From Brevinematales bacterium (lineage in GTDB: Bacteria; Spirochaetota; Brevinematia; Brevinematales; Thermospiraceae), in assembly GCA_026417555.1 (NCBI GenBank), contig JAOADA010000011.1, positions 1 to 46,479 of the forward strand: a stretch of 46,479 nucleotides of DNA. Direction: 5' to 3'. A program made the position numbers and the translations under genes. The notes beneath the pieces were generated by a model that worked only from the letters and a program-made list of their open reading frames with translations, was not told the origin of the DNA and ran no database searches. Shown here piece by piece: positions 480 through 46,479 of the stretch (positions are counted from its first letter, which is position 1; every line of letters begins with the position of its first letter).

Positions 480-606
480 ACACCGTCACCATTTTCTTTC
501 AGGCAGAGATACCTCCAGACAAGACGTATGTGAAGTGTCTTTTTTTGACTGAGAGAATCCAAAGAAGAGATGGTGCCCACGAAAAAAAACAGGCAAGGTG
601 GTAAAG

Positions 607-3222
607 ATGAGGAGAAGGGCTTTTCTTCGTTATTTTTGGTTGATGATGGGCGTATGTTTCCCCCTCTGGGTGTGGGGGGGACCTCTCTTTCATCGAGACA
701 CAGAGATTCGGGAGGTGCGAACCAAGTATTTTCGTATTCTCTATGCTGCCTCGAGAGAGTACACAGTGTCTCGGTTGGTTGCCATGGCAGATGATATCTA
801 CGAGGAGTGGAAGACAAAATTGGGACTTTCCAAAACCTACCCTTTTCTTGTGGTGATAACCCCAGATAGAGAGACGATGAATGGGATGTTTACTTCTCTT
901 CCGCGAAATACGATTGTTCTTTATGAGTATCTCTCAGATCCTTTGCTTGTGCCTTCTGATGATGCCTTGAAAATTCTCTTTGTTCATGAATTGCTCCATG
1001 CCATTTCCCTCAGTGTCCGAACGGAAATGTGGGATGTTCTCTCCACAGTGATGGGGGATTTCCTCTCTCCTCAGTACCTTCAATTGCCATGGTGGATGAT
1101 TGAAGGGGTGACGGTGAGTGGCGAAAGCTCTGAAGGTCAGGGGAGAGTCAATTCTCCTTCTTATCGGGCTATTCTTGTGCAACACCTTGTTGAAAATCGT
1201 TTTGAGGATTACAGTGATGTGGCACAGATGCGGTTTGGGAAGGCGGGGTATCACTATATCTATGGGGGATTTTTTAGTGCGTATCTTCAAAAAAAGTATG
1301 GTTGGGAAAAATATGGGGCCCTTTTCAGAGAAAGTAGCAAGCGTTTTTGGCCATATAGTTTTGAATCTACTTTCAAGCGGGTGTATGGTATCCCTTTAGA
1401 AAAAGAGTGGGCCTCTTTTCGCTCGAATTTTTTTCTTGAGGTGAGTTCTTCTTCTGTGAGAGAAAAAACTCTCATGGAAGGAAAATCTCTTTTCGTACGG
1501 CGTACTCCTGAAGGAGTGTATCTCATAGACACCGAGAAAGAGAAAATCTATCGTCTTGACTATACCCGGCTCACGTGGAAGGGGAAAGGAAGAGATATAG
1601 CGAGTGATGGAACAACCACAGCTTTTCGATATACCCTTTACAAAGAAGGAAAACCTAGAGATGGGTTTCTCCTCTCCGAGGGAAAAGAAAACACATTTCT
1701 CCCGAGGATACGAGAAATGGATATTCTCGGTGATCTTTCACTCAGGGTTCAGGTTGATGGTTTTGAGAGTCGACTTGTGCTCAAGGAGAAAAATCAGGAG
1801 ATTATTCTCTTGGATTACCACCCGAAGAGACACTACCTCTTTCCTCGTTTTGTGGATAACACACGAGCCGTTTTTGTGATGCAAGTTTCCAACAGACCCT
1901 ATCTCGTTGTTTTAAATGTAACCACAAAGGAGATGCGTTTGTATGATTTCTCTCACTATGAGATCACTTCTCTTTCTGTGAATGGGGACAAGGTGTGGAT
2001 GGCCCTCTATCCTCGGGAGGGCAATACCCTCGGCAGGCTTGGTTTCTTTTCTCTCTCTGAGGAAACGCTTTGGATAGCTACGGAGGAAATGAAAGGGGGA
2101 TGCCATAGTGTAGCCAGTGACGGGAATATCTTGTACGTGGTACGGAGGTTTACGGACACCCAGAGATGTGTGGCTTTAGAAGAGAACGAAGTTCTCAGTG
2201 TACTCAAAGCACACACAGAAAAGAAGGAAGGGGTATCTCTTGCGCTTCCTCCACGAGAAACCCCCCCTTCTTTGCGTGCTTTTTCGAATGGACGGCGATG
2301 GTCAGATCATCTTCCTGGGGTGAGGATACCCATTCTTTATCCTGAGCCTATCCCTCTTCTTTTTGGCTCTCTTCTCTGGAATGCTGGGGTATTTCTCTAT
2401 AATGAGGATCCTCTTCAAGAGAATACGACCTCTGTCCAGGTTGTGTATCTTTCCCCTTGGAAAACGTTTGCGCTTTCGGGAGAATGGCAAAATAGGTATT
2501 GGTACCCCTTTTCTGTGTTTGTTGGGTATGGAGGATATGTTGCTCCTGAGGGGACTTACGGAGAGAATTTCAACGGGGGATTTTCTTATCAATGGGATAT
2601 ATCTTCTCACAACGTAGTTCTTTGGAGAAATAGGATAGGGGTGTCTCGGAGATTTGCTTTTTTTTATACCTCAAGTGTGATATGGGCAATCCAACAAGGA
2701 TACCTTTCTACTCCTTATGATATTTTTCAAGGACCTTTGTTTGTTCAAGGGATGATGGACAATATGGGAAATTATTATGGCTATGGCAATGTTGTTTTTT
2801 CCAAAGAGGGACTTTCTCTTGGACTTCTTGGAGGATGGGGAAATACCTCTTTCTTTTCTCCGGTGGATACTTTGCGGGGATTTCGGCCTCTTGGAGAGAC
2901 TCTCCCAGCTACAGAATCTTCCTATTGGGGAAGATCTCTGTATAACGGTGTGGTAGGAGCCCATGGTTTTTGGGTGCTGCCATTTGGGGTAGAAGCGGGA
3001 TATAAACACCTGCCCATCTATTTTGAATCGGTGGGGATAGTGTTAGGTTCGTATGCCTTGCTTCTTGAAAGGGAAGAAATTCAGCGGGATTTTTATAGCG
3101 GGTATATACAATTCTATGCGAAATGGATAGTTGGATATATCCTTCCTCTCACGACACTCTGGGAGTATCAGTATACCTCAGATGGGTGGTATACTGCCTT
3201 TGGTATTGCCTCAAGTTTTTAG
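607..3222 (+). CDS. exported metallopeptidase-like protein with Omp85-like C-terminal barrel
   Basis: A protein of 871 residues. The ATG at 607 is chosen because AAGGTGG (595-601) sits at proper spacing; the GTG at 598 would overlap that site. The N-terminus is a signal peptide (MRRRAF, then a hydrophobic run ending near WVWGG). Residues of about 25-280 look like a gluzincin zinc peptidase: HELLH gives the HExxH motif and WWMIEG follows as the likely third-ligand helix. The middle (about 285-560) has short beta-rich repeats like a TolB/WD40-type propeller. The last 290 residues alternate aromatic and polar residues, end in Phe and contain LRGF (residues 756-759), resembling the conserved (V/I)RGF motif of BamA/TamA-type barrels. 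I infer an outer-membrane protein with a periplasmic peptidase-like part. Whether the peptidase is active cannot be told from sequence. Confidence 0.7.
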   Translation: MRRRAFLRYFWLMMGVCFPLWVWGGPLFHRDTEIREVRTKYFRILYAASREYTVSRLVAMADDIYEEWKTKLGLSKTYPFLVVITPDRETMNGMFTSLPRNTIVLYEYLSDPLLVPSDDALKILFVHELLHAISLSVRTEMWDVLSTVMGDFLSPQYLQLPWWMIEGVTVSGESSEGQGRVNSPSYRAILVQHLVENRFEDYSDVAQMRFGKAGYHYIYGGFFSAYLQKKYGWEKYGALFRESSKRFWPYSFESTFKRVYGIPLEKEWASFRSNFFLEVSSSSVREKTLMEGKSLFVRRTPEGVYLIDTEKEKIYRLDYTRLTWKGKGRDIASDGTTTAFRYTLYKEGKPRDGFLLSEGKENTFLPRIREMDILGDLSLRVQVDGFESRLVLKEKNQEIILLDYHPKRHYLFPRFVDNTRAVFVMQVSNRPYLVVLNVTTKEMRLYDFSHYEITSLSVNGDKVWMALYPREGNTLGRLGFFSLSEETLWIATEEMKGGCHSVASDGNILYVVRRFTDTQRCVALEENEVLSVLKAHTEKKEGVSLALPPRETPPSLRAFSNGRRWSDHLPGVRIPILYPEPIPLLFGSLLWNAGVFLYNEDPLQENTTSVQVVYLSPWKTFALSGEWQNRYWYPFSVFVGYGGYVAPEGTYGENFNGGFSYQWDISSHNVVLWRNRIGVSRRFAFFYTSSVIWAIQQGYLSTPYDIFQGPLFVQGMMDNMGNYYGYGNVVFSKEGLSLGLLGGWGNTSFFSPVDTLRGFRPLGETLPATESSYWGRSLYNGVVGAHGFWVLPFGVEAGYKHLPIYFESVGIVLGSYALLLEREEIQRDFYSGYIQFYAKWIVGYILPLTTLWEYQYTSDGWYTAFGIASSF

Positions 3223-26735: not shown

Positions 26736-27328
26736 AAAGGATAGAGATGCTCTTGGTAGGGCTTGTGCTTGTAGGATGTGGACAGAGTGTGCGAAAAGAG
26801 GCAGAAAAGGTGTGGTATCTCAAGGGCAACCTTCTCTTGACTACCTCGGAAGGAAAACAGCAGCTTCAAGTGGAAATGTATGGAGAGAAAAACAATTTTT
26901 GGGTGATAGAAGGGAGAGATCCTCTTTTGTCTGGGAGGCTTTTTTGGTTTTTGGCAACGGCCGCTGGGACGAATTATTTTATTTATGACGTTCAGAGACA
27001 ATATCTCTTTTTTGTGGATAGGGAATGGGCCGGTCTTTTTGTGGAGGGGATTCCTCTTTTTCTGGAAAGGGATGAGAGTGATTCTCTGAGAGAGGCCGGT
27101 TGGCTGACTACGTATCAGAAAGGACAATGGCAGGCCACAGTCAAAAAACGTTTCCAGGATGGTATGCCAAGGATTCTTCTTGTCGACGGGGGAGGGGAGA
27201 GGTTTTTCCTTGATTTGCAAAAAATAGAAAAGCGGCCTTATCATATACCGAGATATGATCATGTTTCGTGGAGGGAGGTGCATGTGGTCTCTGGGGGAGG
27301 TATATGGGAGGTGATCTATGAGCAGTAA
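26732..27328 (+). CDS. putative lipoprotein of unknown function
   Basis: A protein of 198 residues; ATG overlaps the preceding stop (ATGA). The signal peptide MKRIEMLLVGLVLVGC has lipobox LVGC with the lipidated Cys at 16. The mature part is rich in beta strands and aromatic residues (VEMYGEKNNFWVIEG, YFIYDVQRQYLFFV), reminiscent of LolA/LolB-like folds. I note this only as a resemblance. It overlaps the next gene by 11 bases. Confidence 0.7.
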   Translation: MKRIEMLLVGLVLVGCGQSVRKEAEKVWYLKGNLLLTTSEGKQQLQVEMYGEKNNFWVIEGRDPLLSGRLFWFLATAAGTNYFIYDVQRQYLFFVDREWAGLFVEGIPLFLERDESDSLREAGWLTTYQKGQWQATVKKRFQDGMPRILLVDGGGERFFLDLQKIEKRPYHIPRYDHVSWREVHVVSGGGIWEVIYEQ

Positions 27329-29018
27329 TCGGGAACGGATTGAGAGTATCCGAGAACGTCTCAAAATGAAGGATCTTTCCGAAGGGGAGAAAAAGGCTCT
27401 TTTTCAGAGATTTGTTGAGGCAGGGGGGGAGGTGATAGATCTCGATGCTGAGGAAAGACGGGCCTTAAAGAAGGCTGTGCGTACGGTAGAGCGAGAGCAG
27501 GCAAGAATACAGAGAGATGGAAAAGAGGCAGAGAAAAAACGCTCCGACGTCATGAAAAAAGCGGAAGAACAAAACCCTGTTTCTCAATGGATTGAACTTA
27601 CAGCCTCTCGTATCACCTGTGCCCTGTTGGGTATGGTGCGCTGGAATGGACGGCAGCTCAAGGAAAACTTTGTAAATTTTCTTCTTTATGATTTCCAGAA
27701 TACCCTTCTTCAGATACGGATGATCTTGGCCTCACTTCTCTACCAAGACAAAGCAATTACTGCTGAGGTGAGGCAGATGATGTTGGCGGATCCTTCGTTT
27801 CCCTTTGGATATGAGTTAATCTACCGCTTGGATAATCTCTATCAAGAGGAGTACTTTCACTTTCTTGCGGAACACAAACTCTCCCCTGATTCGTTTTTTG
27901 AAACGTTGGATGTGCTGAAGGCCATGTACCGTTCGCTTTTTGTGATTCAGAATTATCAAACTTCCTTGAAGTTGGCCCTTGAGAAGGCACTGCGCAAAGA
28001 GGGTGAAATTCGCAGGCTCAATTCTCGCATCACGGATCAGAATATCAAAAGTCTCTCTCTTGCGGTTGATTTTGTGTATGAAAGGGTTATCAATCGTTTT
28101 TATCCTTTGATGGAGTATGCGTATCGCTTGGAGAGACAGAAAAAACGGATGAGTTTTCGTGATTTTTTGGAGATGAAACCCGAAGATGTTCTTGGGTACT
28201 ACACAGATCAATGGCGAGAGGAGATGAAAAAGGCTGTCCAGGAAGAAGCCAAAAAGGCTCAGTCTTCTCAGGCTTCTGAGGCTTCGCTTTTTCCTTTGAC
28301 GGAGGAAGTGGCAAATCACGTCCTCCAAGGGCTTAGTGAATACGTGCAAAAAGGGGTCGCGTTTATTGATGAGAGGATCCATTGGAAAGAAAAACTGATG
28401 GAGTATGAATCAAATCGTAGCCCTCGTAGTGTGTATACAGTCAATGATAAAATTTTTTTGGTAGAGACACTGGTAGAACTGTATGAGAGTGAGTTTTCTT
28501 TTCTTTTTACGAGCAACAAGGTTCAGTATAATTATCTTCTCATTGATGGGAAGCGTGTGGATATAAAGAAAGAACTTCTTGATCTTTACTATCGGATGAT
28601 GCCTCTTCGGGATAGGTTCAATGAGTATCTCAGGATCTTGAAAGAAATTCGGGCAGTTGAAAAGGAAGCGTTTCTCTCTGTGGCTGAGAAGAGCAGTCGG
28701 CTTAATCAGTTTGCCATTCAGCGGAGCCAGATTTCTCGTCAGATTCGTCGCGATCTTCGAGAGATGTTTGAGCAGTATAGCAATAAATGGCTTTTTGTCC
28801 TGAGTCGTGCCGAGAGTGAGATGCCAGTGATTCAAAATATGCAGGACACCCTTTCTTTTGACCGAAAGCTTGAGGGGGATAGATGGGCTCATGGAAGGAC
28901 GATTCGTGAGGCTGTGGAAATGGCATACAGTCTTGCGGATACGATCCATTTTCTTTTGATGGGAGAACTGGGAGGGACCAGTCTCTTGATAGAAAAATCG
29001 CTTTACCTTAAAATATAA
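27318..29018 (+). CDS. coiled-coil cytoplasmic protein of unknown function
   Basis: A protein of 566 residues beginning inside the end of the lipoprotein gene. It is almost wholly helical. A charged N-terminal region (about 1-85, with EREQARIQRDGKEAEKKR) is followed by a mixed domain and long amphipathic helices. An Ala/Ser-rich linker (KAQSSQASEAS) lies near 320. There is no signal peptide or membrane segment. I recognise no family; such large helical proteins are common lineage-specific genes in spirochaetes. Tight linkage to the lipoprotein suggests a shared task. Confidence 0.7.
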   Translation: MSSNRERIESIRERLKMKDLSEGEKKALFQRFVEAGGEVIDLDAEERRALKKAVRTVEREQARIQRDGKEAEKKRSDVMKKAEEQNPVSQWIELTASRITCALLGMVRWNGRQLKENFVNFLLYDFQNTLLQIRMILASLLYQDKAITAEVRQMMLADPSFPFGYELIYRLDNLYQEEYFHFLAEHKLSPDSFFETLDVLKAMYRSLFVIQNYQTSLKLALEKALRKEGEIRRLNSRITDQNIKSLSLAVDFVYERVINRFYPLMEYAYRLERQKKRMSFRDFLEMKPEDVLGYYTDQWREEMKKAVQEEAKKAQSSQASEASLFPLTEEVANHVLQGLSEYVQKGVAFIDERIHWKEKLMEYESNRSPRSVYTVNDKIFLVETLVELYESEFSFLFTSNKVQYNYLLIDGKRVDIKKELLDLYYRMMPLRDRFNEYLRILKEIRAVEKEAFLSVAEKSSRLNQFAIQRSQISRQIRRDLREMFEQYSNKWLFVLSRAESEMPVIQNMQDTLSFDRKLEGDRWAHGRTIREAVEMAYSLADTIHFLLMGELGGTSLLIEKSLYLKI

Positions 29019-36375: not shown

Positions 36376-37833
36376 ATGTTTATCCCTCGCTGTATGAGTA
36401 CCCAGCATCCGGACAATGTTCTCTCTCCCTTTTTTGCCGAGCGTCCTCAGATGGGAGGAGAAGATGAGATTCAAGAGGCGTATTATGCCTATTCTCATCT
36501 GGGATGTGATGAACAGATGTGGGATTGTGAGGGAAAGGAAGTGGATGACTATGTGGTGAAGAAGCTTCTCACCAAATATGGTGCCTTCTTTCATGCGAAA
36601 AAACTCGGAGAGGATGTGCGGCTTACGCTTCGTGTTCCCAATCCCCTGGTAGAAAAGGTAGAGGCGAAGGTTCTTCTAGAAACTCTTGAGAGTATTCCTC
36701 GCTCTTTTGATGCGGCAAGACTCTTTTATGGAGAGGATATCACGCCTATTTTTGAGATCATTGTTCCCATGACAACCTCTGCTGATGATCTCAATAGGAT
36801 TTACTATTACTACAAGGATTTTGTGGTGGGGAAACAGGATCTGCCTGTGAGAAAAGGAGATATTACTATCAAGGAATGGATTGGAAATTTCTTTCCTCAG
36901 TCTCTTCAGGTGATTCCCTTGTTTGAGGACAAGGAGCATATTCTTCGGGCGGCAGACATCACCAAAGAGTATCTCAAGGACAAGAAGGTTTCTTCCCAAA
37001 GGGTGTTTATTGCTCGTTCTGATCCAGCGATGAACTATGGGGTGATCAGTGCCGTTCTTCTCAACAAAATTGCTCTCTTGAGGCTTCAGAAGTTTTCAAA
37101 GGAGAGTGGTGTAGCGATCTATCCCATTATTGGGGTGGGTTCAGCCCCTTTTCGGGGAAATCTCAAACCCCACACAATTGAGAGAGTAACTCACGAATAT
37201 TCCAGTGCCTTTACCTTTACTGTGCAATCAGCCTTCAAGTATGATTATGCCCCAGAGGATGTGATAGCCGGTATTCAGGCTTTGAAATCACGCACACCAA
37301 TGCCATTGGCGGAATTTGATGAACAGAGGGCGCTTGATCTCATAGAGAGGTATTCTCAGGAGTATCAGAAACAGATCATGGCTTTGGCTCCCGCTATCAA
37401 CAAAATCGCGCCTTTTGTTCCTAAACGGCGGAAAAGAAAGCTCCATATAGGGCTTTTTGGGTATGCAAGAAAAATGGGGGGAGTTACGCTTCCTCGGGCT
37501 ATTACGTTTACGGCGGCGTTGTATTCGCTTGGGCTTCCTCCGGAACTGTTGGGGATCAATGCTCTTACCTCAGAGGATATCCGATGGCTCAAAGAGGTGT
37601 ACCCCTCTTTCGAGGACGATATGAGGGATGCGCTCACTTTCTATCATCCCTCTTCTGGGATTGTGACTGATGATCTTCGCAAGGCTATTGAGAGGTTGGG
37701 AATCACGTACACCCCTTCTCGAGAGCATCTGGAGGTGTGTGCAGAGATAGCCCAGATGATGAAATCTGATACCCATGAGTTGTTGGTGGAGCATATTGTT
37801 CGGGCAGGAAGTATCAGAAAATTCTTGGGATAG
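36376..37833 (+). CDS. ppcA: phosphoenolpyruvate carboxylase, archaeal type
   Basis: A protein of 485 residues, half the size of the classical bacterial enzyme and typical of the archaeal-type PpcA family. It carboxylates PEP with bicarbonate to oxaloacetate, replenishing the TCA cycle. CMSTQHPDN near the N-terminus is the family signature. IARSDPAMNYG and GVGSAPFRGNL hold active-site residues, and RKRKLHIGLFGYARKMGGV lies in the C-terminal half. ATG 36376 has AAGGAG eight bases upstream; ATG 36394 lacks one. It is probably cotranscribed with the MFS transporter 40 bases downstream. This type is scattered in bacteria (for example Clostridium, Leuconostoc), so transfer in the past is likely. 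Confidence 0.95.
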   Translation: MFIPRCMSTQHPDNVLSPFFAERPQMGGEDEIQEAYYAYSHLGCDEQMWDCEGKEVDDYVVKKLLTKYGAFFHAKKLGEDVRLTLRVPNPLVEKVEAKVLLETLESIPRSFDAARLFYGEDITPIFEIIVPMTTSADDLNRIYYYYKDFVVGKQDLPVRKGDITIKEWIGNFFPQSLQVIPLFEDKEHILRAADITKEYLKDKKVSSQRVFIARSDPAMNYGVISAVLLNKIALLRLQKFSKESGVAIYPIIGVGSAPFRGNLKPHTIERVTHEYSSAFTFTVQSAFKYDYAPEDVIAGIQALKSRTPMPLAEFDEQRALDLIERYSQEYQKQIMALAPAINKIAPFVPKRRKRKLHIGLFGYARKMGGVTLPRAITFTAALYSLGLPPELLGINALTSEDIRWLKEVYPSFEDDMRDALTFYHPSSGIVTDDLRKAIERLGITYTPSREHLEVCAEIAQMMKSDTHELLVEHIVRAGSIRKFLG

Positions 37834-39408: not shown

Positions 39409-42400
39409 ATGAGGTCGCGACGGCTTTTTTCTTTGGTTTTGTTGATAGGATGGGCGATACCCCTGTGGGCGGAGTATTTTTTCACGAGTTTTGATGCAGC
39501 GGAACCAGCTATTTTCCAGTACAATTTCACGTACTCTTTGCAAATGGGCTGGCATAATGTAGGAAACAACTATGCGACGGCCTTCACGGCAAGTACCCTT
39601 CGTATCACAGGGCAAGGCAATACCTCTACTTATTTTAATGAATTATATGGCTTTTTTGTGCGCAAAACCAATGTGATGTACACGGCCTCCAAGGAGAATC
39701 CCATAGGGTTTGAGCTCACCCGTACCTATTGTCGCTTGGATCCAGATAGTGGGATAAACCCAGAGTCTGGTCGTATGAGGGAGGCTTTTCAGCTTCTCTG
39801 GGTGCAGCATGACCCGACAGTGGACGCTGCCGGGGAGTATCTTCCCAATGTGGTACACTTCTCAGAACTCTCGCGTCCCCAGCTTGGGACAAACGATGGA
39901 CTCCCCACGGAACCCAATATCCTTCCGCGATCTTTCTGGGCCTCTGATATGGGGTTCACCCGCAATTCGGCCTATTCTTTTTCCAACCTTCGACCACCCG
40001 ATGGGAATGGGATTCATGATCTTTCGGCTCTCTTTTTGTGGGGCTATGATGATAACTGGGGAAAAGATCTTTATGAAGGGACTGGTGGGACGGTGAATCA
40101 TGCCTTTTTTGACAATAACAATGTGGTGCGTTTTCGGGTAACGATTGATGGGGAGTATGCTTATTTCTATGTGAATCCCAACCCCACGGGGACAGCCAAG
40201 ACAGACTATGACGGAACGGCTCGGGGGGCCACCTACTACTCCAACCAGTTTTATTATGTAGGAAGGGTTCCCGTGATGTTTTCCAACAACCTTATCCCTA
40301 TGTTTGGGGTTTCCGATAACCGACCAGATGGGGAGGTGCTCTCGTACTATGTGGATGATATGACGATCCGGACGGTGGGGGCAAGCAATGTGGCTGAGAT
40401 CTCGCCTGTCCAAACGAGGGCAGGGACAACGAATATCCTGAGGATTGCCCTCAAGCCCTGGTTTTCTACGGTCAACGAGGCTGGGGTTCAAGAGGTGTAC
40501 GTGGATTTGCCAGAGAATTTTCTCTCGTTTACAAACTGGACAGCTTTTACCAACCATATAGGGGTTTTCTGGGCGCATACAAACCAAACCATCTTTCGAA
40601 CCTTCGGACGGGTCTATGCTGATCAGAACCCAGCGGCGGGGAGTGTGGCCATTTCGGTCAAAGAGAATGGCAAACGTCTCAAAATCCGTTTCAACGCGGC
40701 TGCTTCGCCGGATGTTTTTCATCCTAATTATACAGGGTTTGGGGGAAGTCTTGCCACTACGCATCAGTATATGATCTATATTGTGGTAAGCAATTTCTTC
40801 ACCTCACCTGTGGCTGATATCAGTGGCAAGACTCTCGAGGTCTATGTGAATAACGAAAAGTATGTGGATACCACGTGGACAGCCAATGCGACAACAGGAC
40901 CAGCACGGGCGTATGCTGGCAATGTGACGGCTTTTAGCGGTTTCTTGGCAGATAACAATACCCTCACCTTTTCTACGGCGAACAATCCAGTAGGGGTAGC
41001 TTCTCTCCGACCTAACTTCACCTATGAGGGAGAATCCAAAACCTGGTTTGTGGATATTGCCGCCAAAAATACCAATGAATCGGCAGACAATAATGCGGAT
41101 ATTGCTCAGGTGGATATCTTTTTCCCGATAGGGTTTGATCTCCAACCGGGGATGTTTTCAAGTGAGCGCCTGACAAATAGCACAAGCTTCTCTTATAACA
41201 GCGCACTTCGTCGTTTGTCGATTTTCTATACCAATGAAAACCGGTATCTGATTGCGGGTTCGGGTATTGATACGATCAGTTTTGTCAATATCTCTACTAC
41301 GAATTTGGATAGTATTCCCCCAGCGGGAACAAACCAGCTCTCAAATTCTCTTGTAGTAGTGAGTTATGCTGCTTTGGCGGGAACGAGCCCTGTCACCAAT
41401 GGGGTGAGTCTCTCCTATCCCTCTCAGAGTTTTCTTATTCGCAAGAAACCCCCCAAGGTACAGGGGGCTATGCTCCCTACTGAGGTGAGCAATACCCTTG
41501 TGAGCAATCAATACACCTATCTCATCCAGAACAAAGCGGACAACCAGGGAAACAATATTCGGCGGCTTCTCATCCGTTTGGACAAGGTGTTTACCAATGT
41601 GGTGAATGTGGTAGCAGATAGACCTGCCGCGATCACTGTTTCAAAAAATATCACCAATGACAATATAACCAATAGTGGTGGCTATTGGTGGATTCTTGTG
41701 GACTATGCAGCAGGGGCAACGAATGTGGCGCGTGGAGAGAGTGCCACGGTGACGTTCTGGGCCTATGACACGGTACCTTCACTCACGAATATAGTGATGG
41801 CGACCAATATCTCGTATGCTGACAACTTCAATGGGGATACATGGATGCCAGCCACAGAGGAACCAACGACGGGGTGGAAAACCGTGTTTTATACCCCTCC
41901 GGCCAATGTACGTTCCTACATTGCAGAACCTCTTAACGAGGATGGACAACTCGATGCTTCATACAACCATCATCGTTATACCGATCGTGAGGACAGTTTC
42001 CTTGTGCGTGTGCGGATCAAAAACTGGGGTGAACCAGAGAATGTTATCCTCAAAGTCCGTGTTACCTTTCCTACAGGGATCACCAATATGGAAAGCGCTA
42101 CCTCGCTTCGCCTTTCTCCTTCGAGTATCAGAACCTATACGACCAATGCAGGATCCAACTGGGTGGCAGAGTTTTTCTATACGAATGCTCCTGTGCTCCC
42201 CGCGGAGGTGGATGATCTGATCTTCTGGGTGAAGGATGATATCCATGCGCCTGTGACCAAGACAATCCAGGTTGAGGCGGCGAACACGACAAATTATGCT
42301 GTTGGAGGGCTTGAAGGAGCAGACAACCTCGATCTTCGTTTCATCTATCCAAGACCCTCCGCCGTAGGGTATGCCATTGTGCCGAATGGTTTTATTGATG

Positions 42401-45400
42401 CCGCAACCAATGAGGCCACGCTGTACTATGCTATCTCCAATACAGGCTTGTACGAGAACCAGATCAAGGAGCTCTATCTCTGGATCAATACGAACTACAT
42501 CACCAATATCCAGTTTGTCTCTTCGAGTTTGGGTGGGAGTTTTACAGGCTTTGTTCCGGATGTACCACCATACTATCGCCTTCAGGTGCAATACTACACC
42601 ACTTTCTATGGGTCTTCCAATGAGCTTCTCACATTCAAAGTGTTTGATCGAGTGGAGAACAGGGCAGAATTTCCGATATATTTCTCCGTTTCGAACGTCC
42701 GTATGTGGAGTAACCAAATGGCGGCGCCCTCTGGGCAGAGCCAAGTGGTGAGGATGATTCCTCCACCGACTTTTTATGCCTATGGGATTGACAGGACGGT
42801 AGCGTATAGACCAACGGCTTCAGGGATCACCAATACGGTTCAGGTTCGTCTTCGTGTTACTAACCTGGGGTGGGGAAGTAACAAACTCCACAAACTTCGC
42901 CTCTGGATTCCAATGGCATTGACCAACCAACTGCAGAGGGTGAGTAATGCCCTCCTTGAGAAAACAAATGAGGCGGGAGGGCCTGTGAGGATTGTGGCTT
43001 CCAACCTGATTGAGGTGAGTTATATTGATGATGGAAGAGAACTTTTGGCAGGGACATCGGATGATATTTTCCTCACCTTTGGGGTGTGGACGAACCAGGC
43101 TGTGGGAGGAAGCTTTCTTTTGGCAGTGGCAAACAATTCACTTGATGAGATGGGTCAGTATCAGTGGACCAACTACTGGACCAATGTGAGTGTTTTGAGT
43201 GGCACCAACGTTTTCACAATTGTTGATCCAGCAAGATTTTATGTCCAACCAACCACCATTGCTACACCAGCAACGAGTGCACGTCTCTCCAACCGTATTG
43301 AAAATGGAAGTGAGGTGTTTGGGCGGCGGGTTCGTCGGGTGGATCTCTTCTTTGATGGTGGGCTTGTGACCAATGTGGATGTGATAGGGGTGGGATCCGG
43401 TGGGACAGCAAGCGTGTTGGGGAGGACCAATGTTCGTGTGGACTATTCACCGGGGATTGATCCCAATAGTGCGCGATGGATCGATGTCCGTGTCTATGAT
43501 AATTGGCTTGAGGGCAATACCAATATGCTGGTGACAGCAAACGTGTGGTATGAGGCAGATCCTTTGGGTACAGGAGAAATCGCACTTGTCAAGGAATCTT
43601 ATACAAATCTTGTGGCTTTTGAAAATCCGGCAGCTTCAGCCCAGGGTGCGGTGGCTCCCTCAGTGGTATGGCAGGATTTTCTTCATACGAACTATACCCT
43701 GACGATTTCGAATACGGGGGAGAGTGGAAACGATATCAAGTGGGTGAAAATTGTGGCTCCTTACTTCATCACGAATATAGAGACCGTTGTCTCCTCGAAG
43801 GGAGGGGTGATTGTCACGTATCCTTCAGAGATACACGTCTATTATACCAATGTGACTTTTGCCTCTGGGGAAGTTGATACCATTACCTGGCGAGGATGGG
43901 ACAATATTGAGACAACAGAGGTATCTGCAAGTTGGCTCCTGGAGGTAAACAACACCCTTGAACCTTCTCTTTTCAGGAGTGTGGGTATTATTCCTGGGTA
44001 TAGTCAGTCGCTCACTATCAAACGTCCTCCCTATCAGGTCAACTTCTATGTGGAATTTACAAACAGTATCAATACGGTAGAACGTACAAAGATGTATTCG
44101 ACAGAGGAGACCAACTGGATCAAGGTAGTGATCAATAACACAGGTTCAACGGGGAATGATATTGTGGCTGTACGTATCCCTATCCCTTCGATTTATGATA
44201 GTGTGGGGGCACCTGAGAATATTTTGGTGACGAATGGCATGGTAGTGACAAGTAGTCGTGGCACACCAGTGATTTCGAATGATAGTGTGTGGGTGGATTA
44301 TAGTGCAAGTCCTCTCTTTCCGATGGAAGGAGATGAGGTAATCATAAGACTCACCGATCGTTTGACCCACACTGAAACCAACCTTCCATGGACGCTTCAG
44401 GCTCGTCTTACCACGACGGCAAACCGCTACAAAGATGCCTCTGTTCAGGTAGGGCAGTCGGCGGTGGCGTCGTATGTGATGCCTTTGCCTCAGGCTGTGG
44501 TGGTGCTTTCACCCTCGGAGATCTATCTTGCTCGTCGTCGTTTCAGGCTTGGGATCATGGTGAGCAATACAGGACGAGGTACAAGCGATATTGATCGCGT
44601 TCAGATTACGTTACCGCCGGCTCTCCAGAGTGGGTTTGGGATCACCAAGGTTTCCAATACCCTTGCCACAGGGACAAATTATGCGGGCGGCGTGCTGACG
44701 CTTGATTATGCGTCTCCTCTTGTGCCTGGGCAGAAAGATGAACTCTACCTTGAGGTTACGAACACCCTGACAGATCTTCAAGATGTCTCTTTTGTGGTTT
44801 CTGTACGAAACTATGCCAAGACGGCTTTGGCGACGGGTCAGAATACGCTTTCTTTCTCTTCTTTGCCTACGTTCTTTGGGTATGTGAACTATGCCGAGGG
44901 GAATCACACCATAGATACAACCACGATAACCAATATCTTCTCCGTGGTGATTGACAATTCTGTGAATACGGCCTTGCGTGTGAGCCGGGCACGGGTGGTA
45001 TTTCCTGATTGGTTTACCAATGGAGATAGTTACCAGAGTGAACGCTATATCACCAATACCAATCGTATCACAGGAAACCCAACCAATATCCTTTTGGAAT
45101 ATGCTTTGGACAATAGACGTATTGTGAGTGGAGATTATGATGTAGTGAATTTCCGTCTCTGGGATGAGAGAAGGATTGGCAATTTCACCAATAGTTTTGA
45201 GGTTTCTGTGGATGATGGACTTGCCCTTTCGGAAGCAGAACGCTGGCTCAAACTCCCTGTTCAGAGTGGCAAGACCAATATCTTCTTCTTCCGTATGCCC
45301 CCAGCGGATGTGGCACAAACCATTGGAACAACAACTATCTATGTGGATACGGAGGTTACTAATACGACTGTTCGAGTAACCAACCGGGCGTTGCTTGATA

Positions 45401-46479
45401 ACCCTGTGGCCATGGCACGGATCATTCTTCCTTTGGGGGTTACCAATATTGGTGGGCTTGTGAGTAGTAAGGGTGCCGATCTCGCTTATGATGCAGTGAC
45501 TCATCGTATCATAGTCGACTATAGGAATATAGGACTCCTTGGAAAGGGCGAAAAAGATGATATCTTCTTTGAGTTTACCAATCTCTATCGTGTGCCAACC
45601 AATGTTTCTTTCATGGTGGAAGTAGCCAATCTCACAAATCTCTCTGAGATGGTCTTTAGTCCTGCGGCGGGAATGAATGGCTCTGTCTCTATGATGAAGG
45701 TCAACTACCCTCCTGTGGCTGTCGAGGGAGGCTTTTATGGTGAGAATAGGGTGTATCTTATCGACACGAATGCCACCCTTGTCTATAGGGTATTGAATCG
45801 TACCTTTGAAAGTGTGGTGACGCAGGTGGTGATCACCTTTGAGAGGGATATTACCAACTACTTTAGTGATATACAGCTTGCCAATACTGTCGCGACTGTG
45901 ACCCGTGCTACGACCAATACCAATCAGTTTATTCTCAGTTATACGACGGCGAATGGTATCAAGCAGGGATATTATGAGGATCTTGTTTTTACTCTTCGCT
46001 ATACACTCACTAACACCGATGTGATTCCTCTCACGACGAGGGTGTGGCTTGAAAAGATAGGGCCAGATGGTACCAATGTCAATGCGTTGAGGGTGTTCAC
46101 CCAAGATCCGGACAAAACCCTTCTCTATATCACCAATGCGAATTGGGGTGTGGTGAGGGGAAGTGTTTTCCCAACCAACAAGACGGTGGCTGTCAAGATT
46201 TATAGTCCGGGTTCTTCGTCGGCACTTCTTGATATTGATGGGAACGTCCTTGCTACCTCTACCCGTGTTCCAGAAGGCACCTATGTGATTCGCAAGATCC
46301 CGGGAGGGCTGTATGATATTGAGTTTTCAGCGCCTTATTATAGAAGTGTGCGTTACCAAACCAATATTGCTCCGAATGCGATTACTGAGATACCTCAGCT
46401 TGCTATGCGCAATGCTCCACTTTTAGGTGGTGAGGAGGCGGTGCAGGTAGTGGAGTGTTATGAGGATACGAACACGATG
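39409..46479 (+). CDS. giant exported repeat protein (3' end beyond window)
   Basis: The frame is open for 2357 codons from ATG 39409 (GGAGG seven to eight bases upstream... spaced by CGAT) to the last base, so the protein is longer still. Signal peptide MRSRRLFSLVLLIGWAIPLWA. Residues of about 25-325 look like a jelly-roll domain ending in YYVDDMTIRTV. From about 330 on, beta-sandwich-like modules of about 125-155 residues repeat. Most begin with a Pro-aromatic stretch, then have an NTG/NLG turn (ISNTGESGNDIKWVKI, VSNTGRGTSDIDRVQI) and a P-x-x-ITNI strand. Module starts lie near 41450, 41899, 42355, 42763, 43228, 43627, 44029, 44488, 44868, 45298 and 45709. Thr-Asn pairs are strikingly frequent. 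The last visible part (GTYVIRKIPGGLYDIEF) is a carboxypeptidase-regulatory-like domain. Likely a surface or periplasmic filamentous protein; no named family recognised. Confidence 0.88.
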   Translation, partial: MRSRRLFSLVLLIGWAIPLWAEYFFTSFDAAEPAIFQYNFTYSLQMGWHNVGNNYATAFTASTLRITGQGNTSTYFNELYGFFVRKTNVMYTASKENPIGFELTRTYCRLDPDSGINPESGRMREAFQLLWVQHDPTVDAAGEYLPNVVHFSELSRPQLGTNDGLPTEPNILPRSFWASDMGFTRNSAYSFSNLRPPDGNGIHDLSALFLWGYDDNWGKDLYEGTGGTVNHAFFDNNNVVRFRVTIDGEYAYFYVNPNPTGTAKTDYDGTARGATYYSNQFYYVGRVPVMFSNNLIPMFGVSDNRPDGEVLSYYVDDMTIRTVGASNVAEISPVQTRAGTTNILRIALKPWFSTVNEAGVQEVYVDLPENFLSFTNWTAFTNHIGVFWAHTNQTIFRTFGRVYADQNPAAGSVAISVKENGKRLKIRFNAAASPDVFHPNYTGFGGSLATTHQYMIYIVVSNFFTSPVADISGKTLEVYVNNEKYVDTTWTANATTGPARAYAGNVTAFSGFLADNNTLTFSTANNPVGVASLRPNFTYEGESKTWFVDIAAKNTNESADNNADIAQVDIFFPIGFDLQPGMFSSERLTNSTSFSYNSALRRLSIFYTNENRYLIAGSGIDTISFVNISTTNLDSIPPAGTNQLSNSLVVVSYAALAGTSPVTNGVSLSYPSQSFLIRKKPPKVQGAMLPTEVSNTLVSNQYTYLIQNKADNQGNNIRRLLIRLDKVFTNVVNVVADRPAAITVSKNITNDNITNSGGYWWILVDYAAGATNVARGESATVTFWAYDTVPSLTNIVMATNISYADNFNGDTWMPATEEPTTGWKTVFYTPPANVRSYIAEPLNEDGQLDASYNHHRYTDREDSFLVRVRIKNWGEPENVILKVRVTFPTGITNMESATSLRLSPSSIRTYTTNAGSNWVAEFFYTNAPVLPAEVDDLIFWVKDDIHAPVTKTIQVEAANTTNYAVGGLEGADNLDLRFIYPRPSAVGYAIVPNGFIDAATNEATLYYAISNTGLYENQIKELYLWINTNYITNIQFVSSSLGGSFTGFVPDVPPYYRLQVQYYTTFYGSSNELLTFKVFDRVENRAEFPIYFSVSNVRMWSNQMAAPSGQSQVVRMIPPPTFYAYGIDRTVAYRPTASGITNTVQVRLRVTNLGWGSNKLHKLRLWIPMALTNQLQRVSNALLEKTNEAGGPVRIVASNLIEVSYIDDGRELLAGTSDDIFLTFGVWTNQAVGGSFLLAVANNSLDEMGQYQWTNYWTNVSVLSGTNVFTIVDPARFYVQPTTIATPATSARLSNRIENGSEVFGRRVRRVDLFFDGGLVTNVDVIGVGSGGTASVLGRTNVRVDYSPGIDPNSARWIDVRVYDNWLEGNTNMLVTANVWYEADPLGTGEIALVKESYTNLVAFENPAASAQGAVAPSVVWQDFLHTNYTLTISNTGESGNDIKWVKIVAPYFITNIETVVSSKGGVIVTYPSEIHVYYTNVTFASGEVDTITWRGWDNIETTEVSASWLLEVNNTLEPSLFRSVGIIPGYSQSLTIKRPPYQVNFYVEFTNSINTVERTKMYSTEETNWIKVVINNTGSTGNDIVAVRIPIPSIYDSVGAPENILVTNGMVVTSSRGTPVISNDSVWVDYSASPLFPMEGDEVIIRLTDRLTHTETNLPWTLQARLTTTANRYKDASVQVGQSAVASYVMPLPQAVVVLSPSEIYLARRRFRLGIMVSNTGRGTSDIDRVQITLPPALQSGFGITKVSNTLATGTNYAGGVLTLDYASPLVPGQKDELYLEVTNTLTDLQDVSFVVSVRNYAKTALATGQNTLSFSSLPTFFGYVNYAEGNHTIDTTTITNIFSVVIDNSVNTALRVSRARVVFPDWFTNGDSYQSERYITNTNRITGNPTNILLEYALDNRRIVSGDYDVVNFRLWDERRIGNFTNSFEVSVDDGLALSEAERWLKLPVQSGKTNIFFFRMPPADVAQTIGTTTIYVDTEVTNTTVRVTNRALLDNPVAMARIILPLGVTNIGGLVSSKGADLAYDAVTHRIIVDYRNIGLLGKGEKDDIFFEFTNLYRVPTNVSFMVEVANLTNLSEMVFSPAAGMNGSVSMMKVNYPPVAVEGGFYGENRVYLIDTNATLVYRVLNRTFESVVTQVVITFERDITNYFSDIQLANTVATVTRATTNTNQFILSYTTANGIKQGYYEDLVFTLRYTLTNTDVIPLTTRVWLEKIGPDGTNVNALRVFTQDPDKTLLYITNANWGVVRGSVFPTNKTVAVKIYSPGSSSALLDIDGNVLATSTRVPEGTYVIRKIPGGLYDIEFSAPYYRSVRYQTNIAPNAITEIPQLAMRNAPLLGGEEAVQVVECYEDTNTM

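Follow-up and report, generated by a model that had tools for sequence, protein, structure and literature searches.

Gene A and the contig end

The window (the whole stretch of DNA analysed, 46,479 nucleotides) is the entire contig C2 of a genome from the order Brevinematales (Spirochaetota), which is 98% complete at 2.04 Mb in 33 contigs. Its last gene, here called gene A, occupies 39409–46479 on the forward strand as a frame of 2357 codons without a stop, with a probability of occurring by chance of ~10^-54 as judged from base composition. The original prediction of an open frame of at least 2357 residues was correct, coordinates included. The mechanically defined open reading frame opens further upstream, at TTG 39208, but the ATG at 39409 is the likely start because a strong Shine-Dalgarno sequence (AAGGAGG) directly precedes it. 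The frame runs off at 46479. Contig C2 stops at this position, so the truncation comes from the assembly and the gene is not broken there. Its last 77 bp are identical to C32:432-508, inside a second copy of gene A, suggesting that assembly ran into a near-identical repeat. The frame is also open in that paralogue, as far as the paralogue's own contig end, and in most relatives. The lost 3' part amounts to ~240 residues. Judged from its sequence, the portion in hand is the front 90% of a predicted giant, lectin-tipped surface protein of uncultured spirochaetes. The closest named relative, Ch60, belongs to the same genus and is 83% identical.

None of the neighbours of gene A is conserved, even within the genus, and plasmid records gave no match for the gene, so there is no sign of plasmid carriage. 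A phosphoenolpyruvate carboxylase of the PEPcase_2 (archaeal) type lies at 36376-37833, just upstream of the MFS gene that neighbours gene A. Elsewhere in the window, two genes are without a Pfam match at E 0.001 (598-3222, 874 aa; 27318-29018, 566 aa), and a dispersed repeat lies near the contig start (1-213), of which bases 65-213 are 94% identical to contig C32 (~C32:10107-10255) and bases 1-49 are 87% identical to another stretch of the same contig.

Domain architecture of protein A

In the predicted protein a Sec signal peptide precedes a domain of ConA-like lectin fold, which is followed by a series of 13 diverged modules of Ig-like type and then by a carboxypeptidase-regulatory-like domain. 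The features, all on the forward strand, are as follows.

39409–39471, forward: Sec signal peptide MRSRRLFSLVLLIGWAIPLWA, residues 1–21 (called by eye from the sequence)
39472–40389, forward: N-terminal ConA/legume-lectin/GH16-like beta-sandwich, residues 22–327 (AlphaFold2 model, VIA-align)
40390–40956, forward: module M0, Ig-like, 189 aa (fold matches, module profiles)
40957–46149, forward: modules M1–M12, diverged Ig-like beta-sandwiches, 129–159 aa each (profile self-comparison, module profiles, fold matches)
40957–41433, forward: M1
41434–41877, forward: M2
41878–42342, forward: M3
42343–42756, forward: M4
42757–43221, forward: M5
43222–43623, forward: M6
43624–44019, forward: M7
44020–44475, forward: M8
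44476–44862, forward: M9
44863–45294, forward: M10
45295–45699, forward: M11
45700–46149, forward: M12
46150–46413 (end approximate), forward: carboxypeptidase-regulatory-like (CnaB-type) domain, residues 2248–2335 (PF13620 sub-threshold, PDB sequence matches, fold)
46414–46479, forward: start of a ZU5-like region, cut by the contig end (by comparison with relatives)

The modules M0–M12 take up residues 328–2247. Windows of a profile built from A orthologues re-match the same chain at 11–12 regularly spaced places, with E down to 2e-17. Structure models were made for residues 22–690 of protein A and for the C-terminal 603 residues of a relative; among M1–M12 only M1, M11 and M12 fall within them, and M2–M10 rest on sequence homology. 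In Foldseek the modules match Ig-like domains found in integrin alpha, PrgB and pilins, and the fold match of M12 lies beside cohesins. For the carboxypeptidase-regulatory-like domain, UafA and scaffoldin are found as sequence matches in the PDB.

The original prediction had described a Thr-Asn-rich, exported chain of at least eleven modules of about 125–155 residues, possibly a new surface or adhesin family. The composition holds (Thr 10.1%, Asn 8.3%), with 69 occurrences of TN against 20 ± 4 in shuffled sequences, and a signal peptide is present. The recurring strand-end motifs are real for ITN, TNI and TNV (10 times each), but the NTG turn occurs only 4 times. Likewise the modular array is real, with 13 modules placed rather than at least eleven, but the lectin-like N-terminus and the C-terminal part have other folds. 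Searches of the whole chain against Pfam and NCBIfam gave nothing except weak CarboxypepD_reg and FixG_C matches, and the CARDB and DUF11 models gave no match at E up to 1 in protein A or its relatives. No model covers the chain, in keeping with a new family, and a profile of the N-domain and first modules finds homologues in 24 of 296 sampled Spirochaetota genomes, spread over 12 families.

The N-domain model has an overall pLDDT of 77, with several loops below 50. In VIA-align it gives Z scores of 11.6–13.2 (rmsd 3.1–4.2, ~180–200 aligned residues), and all 50 matching entries are lectins, glucanases or galectin-like proteins of the ConA-like jelly-roll class, including ERGIC-53, legume lectins and GH16 glucanases. 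A reading of this domain as a GH16 enzyme was dropped because the catalytic motif ExDx(x)E is absent from it in six members. From the modelled fold, a putative adhesive tip is plausible, and to this extent so is the suggested adhesin.

C-terminal region in relatives

The window gene ends before its C-terminal domain (CTD), and the results for this region come from relatives. There, the carboxypeptidase-regulatory-like domain is followed by a ZU5-like domain, which matches ankyrin-B (Z 9.0, residues 334–497 of the relative's C-terminal model), and then by a domain resembling FlgD and the CTDs of the type IX secretion system (T9SS), with which the chain ends. The C-terminal ~80 residues of two relatives (P0002 and P0003) pass the cut-off of FlgD_ig (PF13860). 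The three best structural matches to the C-terminal model include the CTDs of two T9SS components from Porphyromonas: that of PorU (6za2; Z 11.5, rmsd 3.2, 98 aligned, 20% identity) and that of PorZ (5m11; Z 10.8, rmsd 2.3, 89 aligned, 24% identity). On the CTD, the score of the type A tail model TIGR04183 is 19.7 bits, with a cut-off of 23. By resemblance, then, the relatives end in an Ig-like domain of sorting type with a putative sorting role. FlgD_ig-like domains also occur outside the T9SS, as in the control genomes of E. coli and B. subtilis. Two further large proteins of the source genome (G000:C27:57738-59669 and G000:C11:230017-230709, in frames of 1326 and 889 aa) contain several FlgD_ig-like domains, and these may possibly be additional cargo of the same export route.

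Tandem paralogue and age of the array

In a complete genome of the window's genus (G001) and in that of Ch60 (G002), another giant gene, B (~2530–2560 aa), comes after gene A and is collinear with it at ~25% identity; in G001 the gap between them is about 10 nt. Tandem pairs are also found in G033 (2735 and 2910 aa), G061 and G100 of the distant family f20. In the source genome B is mostly absent from the assembly, and its last 161 residues lie on contig C29. The window's genus carries two A-B sets, with 47% protein identity between A1 and A2. Towards the 3' ends of A1 and A2 in G001, nucleotide identity jumps from ~57% to 80–97%, with exact runs of 68–83 bases. The same jump is seen at the 3' ends of B1 and B2, with an exact run of 178, and in M0 (~87% identity). 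Boundaries this sharp suggest that the sorting domain and the region adjoining it have undergone gene conversion. Across the operon copies as a whole (L036/L037, L040/L041), ~50% nucleotide identity is interrupted by sharply bounded near-identical stretches. Two irregularities were noted, a shift of frame in A1 of G002 close to its 3' end (L054:17200-17266) and an in-frame TAG in the B gene of G011 (L028); both are likely assembly errors, though possibly real.

When module profiles built from the order's A proteins are run on a class-level orthologue (G016), the best match is the module at the same position for 12 of 13 modules. In paralogue B the same holds for M0, M1, M4, M5 and M7 in nearly all comparisons, and between class-level relatives the modules at equal positions match each other best. 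The array is thus fixed; it predates the class and, at least for the most part, the split of A and B, in agreement with the earlier view that the modules are diverged and the array old.

This constancy bears on whether A and B are a paired surface-layer system rather than adhesins, a two-component, abundant coat of fixed length like TfsA/TfsB of Tannerella forsythia, whose S-layer consists of two CTD proteins and depends on the T9SS (PMC4175972). Two collinear giants are kept together, module order is conserved between class-level relatives and lengths are near-constant in Brevinematia. However, lengths differ in some other families (2735–2910, 3606 and 4187 aa), the ~2600 aa of A far exceed TfsA and TfsB (133 and 151 kDa without glycans), and a lectin-like tip is untypical of a coat. 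On balance a paired surface layer appears unlikely.

SprA-like proteins and motor searches

The SprA model TIGR04189 has matches in 82 of the 296 genomes, all below cut-off and in frames mostly of ~1900–2000 aa. One relative of 1999 aa scores 165.5 bits in four stretches in profile order (E 1e-48; cut-off 200 bits), and another of 1989 aa reaches E 3e-24, likewise below the 200-bit cut-off. The candidate of the source genome is a 1926-aa protein on contig C27 (G000:C27:259778-265558). It is not recognised by the SprA model in hmmscan at E 0.01, and it aligns nearly whole-length to the protein of G003 (32%) and to that of G061 (E 4e-61); identities to the SprA-like relatives are 24–32%. The N-terminal model SprA_N (PF14349) is silent in 15 genomes, including that of the window. 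Matches to TIGR04189 are present in 21 of the 24 A/B genomes versus 61 of the 272 others (P 2e-10, shared ancestry ignored). The 61 genomes without A/B indicate that the SprA-like proteins are not specific to A/B cargoes. The three A/B genomes without a match are G048, G051 and G146, and the control genomes also gave none. Directly upstream of the SprA-like gene of the source genome is a gene whose 928-aa product has an Omp85 barrel domain and matches a TolB-like propeller weakly (G000:C27:256831-259614; L127:6332-9115), and a 932-aa frame is found near the SprA-like gene in G001 too. For the motor protein GldM, TIGR03517 found no credible match in the A/B genomes (G028 only, E 0.008), and no control genome matched either. 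For both SprA and GldM it is therefore the matches, and not the lack of them, that carry information.

Linkage to a barrel gene

A gene for a PorV/FadL-like outer-membrane barrel, gene C, adjoins B on the downstream side in G003, G004, G006 and G009 and in class-level relatives (G014, G015), and adjoins A directly upstream in the distant family f20 (G033, G061, G100). That C is kept beside A-B in distant lineages, on opposite sides, is an argument for a functional link. Within the window's genus, gene C lies away from A-B, the copy of the source genome being G000:C3:11347-12579. Both A/B and C are present in 18 of the 296 genomes, A/B alone in 6, C alone in 3 and neither in 269, i.e. C is found in 18 of 24 A/B genomes versus 3 of 272 others (Fisher P 6e-21, shared ancestry ignored); several of the genomes that break this pattern are incomplete or fragmented. 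The small genomes of the Brevinematales family f4 are without A/B, C and SprA matches alike. The matches of C to PorV_fam (36.6 bits, cut-off 90) and PorP_fam (up to 34.6 bits, cut-off 90.55) are significant and below cut-off, and TraF_2 is just over cut-off in two members. In G004 the C protein (L105:11938-13644) has a long Thr-Asn-rich repeat tail, absent from other C proteins, that echoes the TN-rich A. The gene after C in some relatives was considered as a further linked component and rejected, as its translation reads as a GlmM-type phosphomutase, a housekeeping neighbour; a phosphomutase homologue near A1 in G001 is probably there by chance.

In Flavobacterium the genes of the 669-kDa SprB and of SprF, a PorP-like barrel of the FadL family, are neighbours, and SprB is secreted together with SprF, which binds it (PMC9143113). 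The arrangement of a giant and a FadL-like barrel gene is the same here, and the lectin-fold N-terminus would stand at the end remote from the anchor. Both features fit long glycan-binding or gliding-type (SprB-like) adhesins with C as an SprF-like carrier. However, the number of modules is fixed, unlike in many repeat adhesins, and a gliding motor was not detected (in a search without a positive control), so that this version is possible but doubtful.

A more sceptical interpretation takes the FlgD-like domain as merely a structural Ig domain, places A and B in the periplasm or on another route, and regards the matches to SprA and C as coincidental members of outer-membrane protein families. 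FlgD_ig is widespread, and every T9SS profile match of SprA and C is below cut-off. However, the linkage of C in two gene orders and its strong co-occurrence with A/B, the SprA homology of relatives with its full-length alignment to the protein of the source genome, and the high rank of the PorU and PorZ CTDs in the structural comparison all speak against it, and this interpretation seems improbable.

Proposed function and comparison with known systems

The favoured reading is that A and B are probably cargo of a T9SS-like exporter, held at the surface with their cognate barrel C, and act as a coat or a long adhesin. The secreted product of gene A, ~2600 residues long, would have two partners, the tandem giant B and the dedicated PorV/PorP-like barrel C. 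Sec would carry A and B into the periplasm, where an SprA/Sov-like outer-membrane translocon would recognise their C-terminal FlgD/T9SS-like domains; a cargo CTD is known to bind PorV loops within the SprA pore (PMC10994853). The C barrel would then receive both proteins and hold them at the surface, with the 13 Ig-like modules as a long stalk pushing the lectin-fold domain outward, and A and B together might form the surface coat or long adhesin. What was observed is the domain layout, the tandem pair, the linkage of C and its co-occurrence with A/B, the likeness of the CTD to those of the T9SS, and distant homologues of SprA within the same set of genomes. We infer the export route, the anchoring, the partnership of A and B and the coat or adhesin role from these observations, which support the guess of a surface protein. 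What ties the system to the T9SS is distant homology and resemblance, and its membership is putative. The tandem paralogue, barrel partner, T9SS-like CTD and SprA-like protein change the picture from that first drawn.

More broadly, part of the Spirochaetota may have a type IX-like export pathway (SprA-like translocon, PorV/PorP-like carrier, CTD cargo), possibly energised differently from the GldLM motor, with the paired lectin-tipped giant as one conserved cargo, making up the cell surface in Brevinematia and in several further families. This is a tentative proposal, rated at somewhat below even. The T9SS has been placed in the Bacteroidota, or at most the FCB phyla, and its genes are said to be absent from other phyla (PMC11285876, PMC4793230). 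A literature search with limited coverage of subscription journals returned no report of a T9SS in Spirochaetota. If the proposal is true, the SprA-like proteins in 82 of 296 genomes, with linked CTD cargo and carrier, extend T9SS-type export to another phylum, spirochaetes gain a way of exporting proteins to their outer surface, and natural variants become available for asking which T9SS parts are indispensable. In free-living and hot-spring spirochaetes, A/B would be a candidate for the main structure of the cell surface.

Compared with SprB-SprF of Flavobacterium johnsoniae, a T9SS type B cargo with its PorP-like barrel, the system described here shares a giant, modular, predicted surface protein that in relatives ends in a putative sorting domain, an adjoining gene for a FadL-like barrel and a putative SprA-like translocon in the genome. 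It differs in having two paralogous giants instead of one, a lectin-fold tip, a CTD that is ambiguous between types A and B, a C protein that weakly resembles both PorV and PorP models, the motor result given above, and its phylum. TfsA/TfsB of Tannerella likewise are two large CTD-bearing surface proteins, T9SS-dependent in that organism, whereas A and B are much larger and have a lectin-like N-domain, and an S-layer here is hypothetical. The stalk modules of CARDB, DUF11 and other Ig-like proteins resemble those of A as serial Ig-like beta-sandwiches with strand ends rich in Asn, Thr and Gly, but the modules of A match no Pfam model of these families at E up to 1, are fixed in order and are strongly diverged. 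Finally, the Ig-like domain of FlgD is recognised in the C-terminal residues of A relatives, but FlgD itself is an assembly protein of the flagellar hook cap, whereas in these relatives the FlgD-like domain ends a giant, putatively exported chain.
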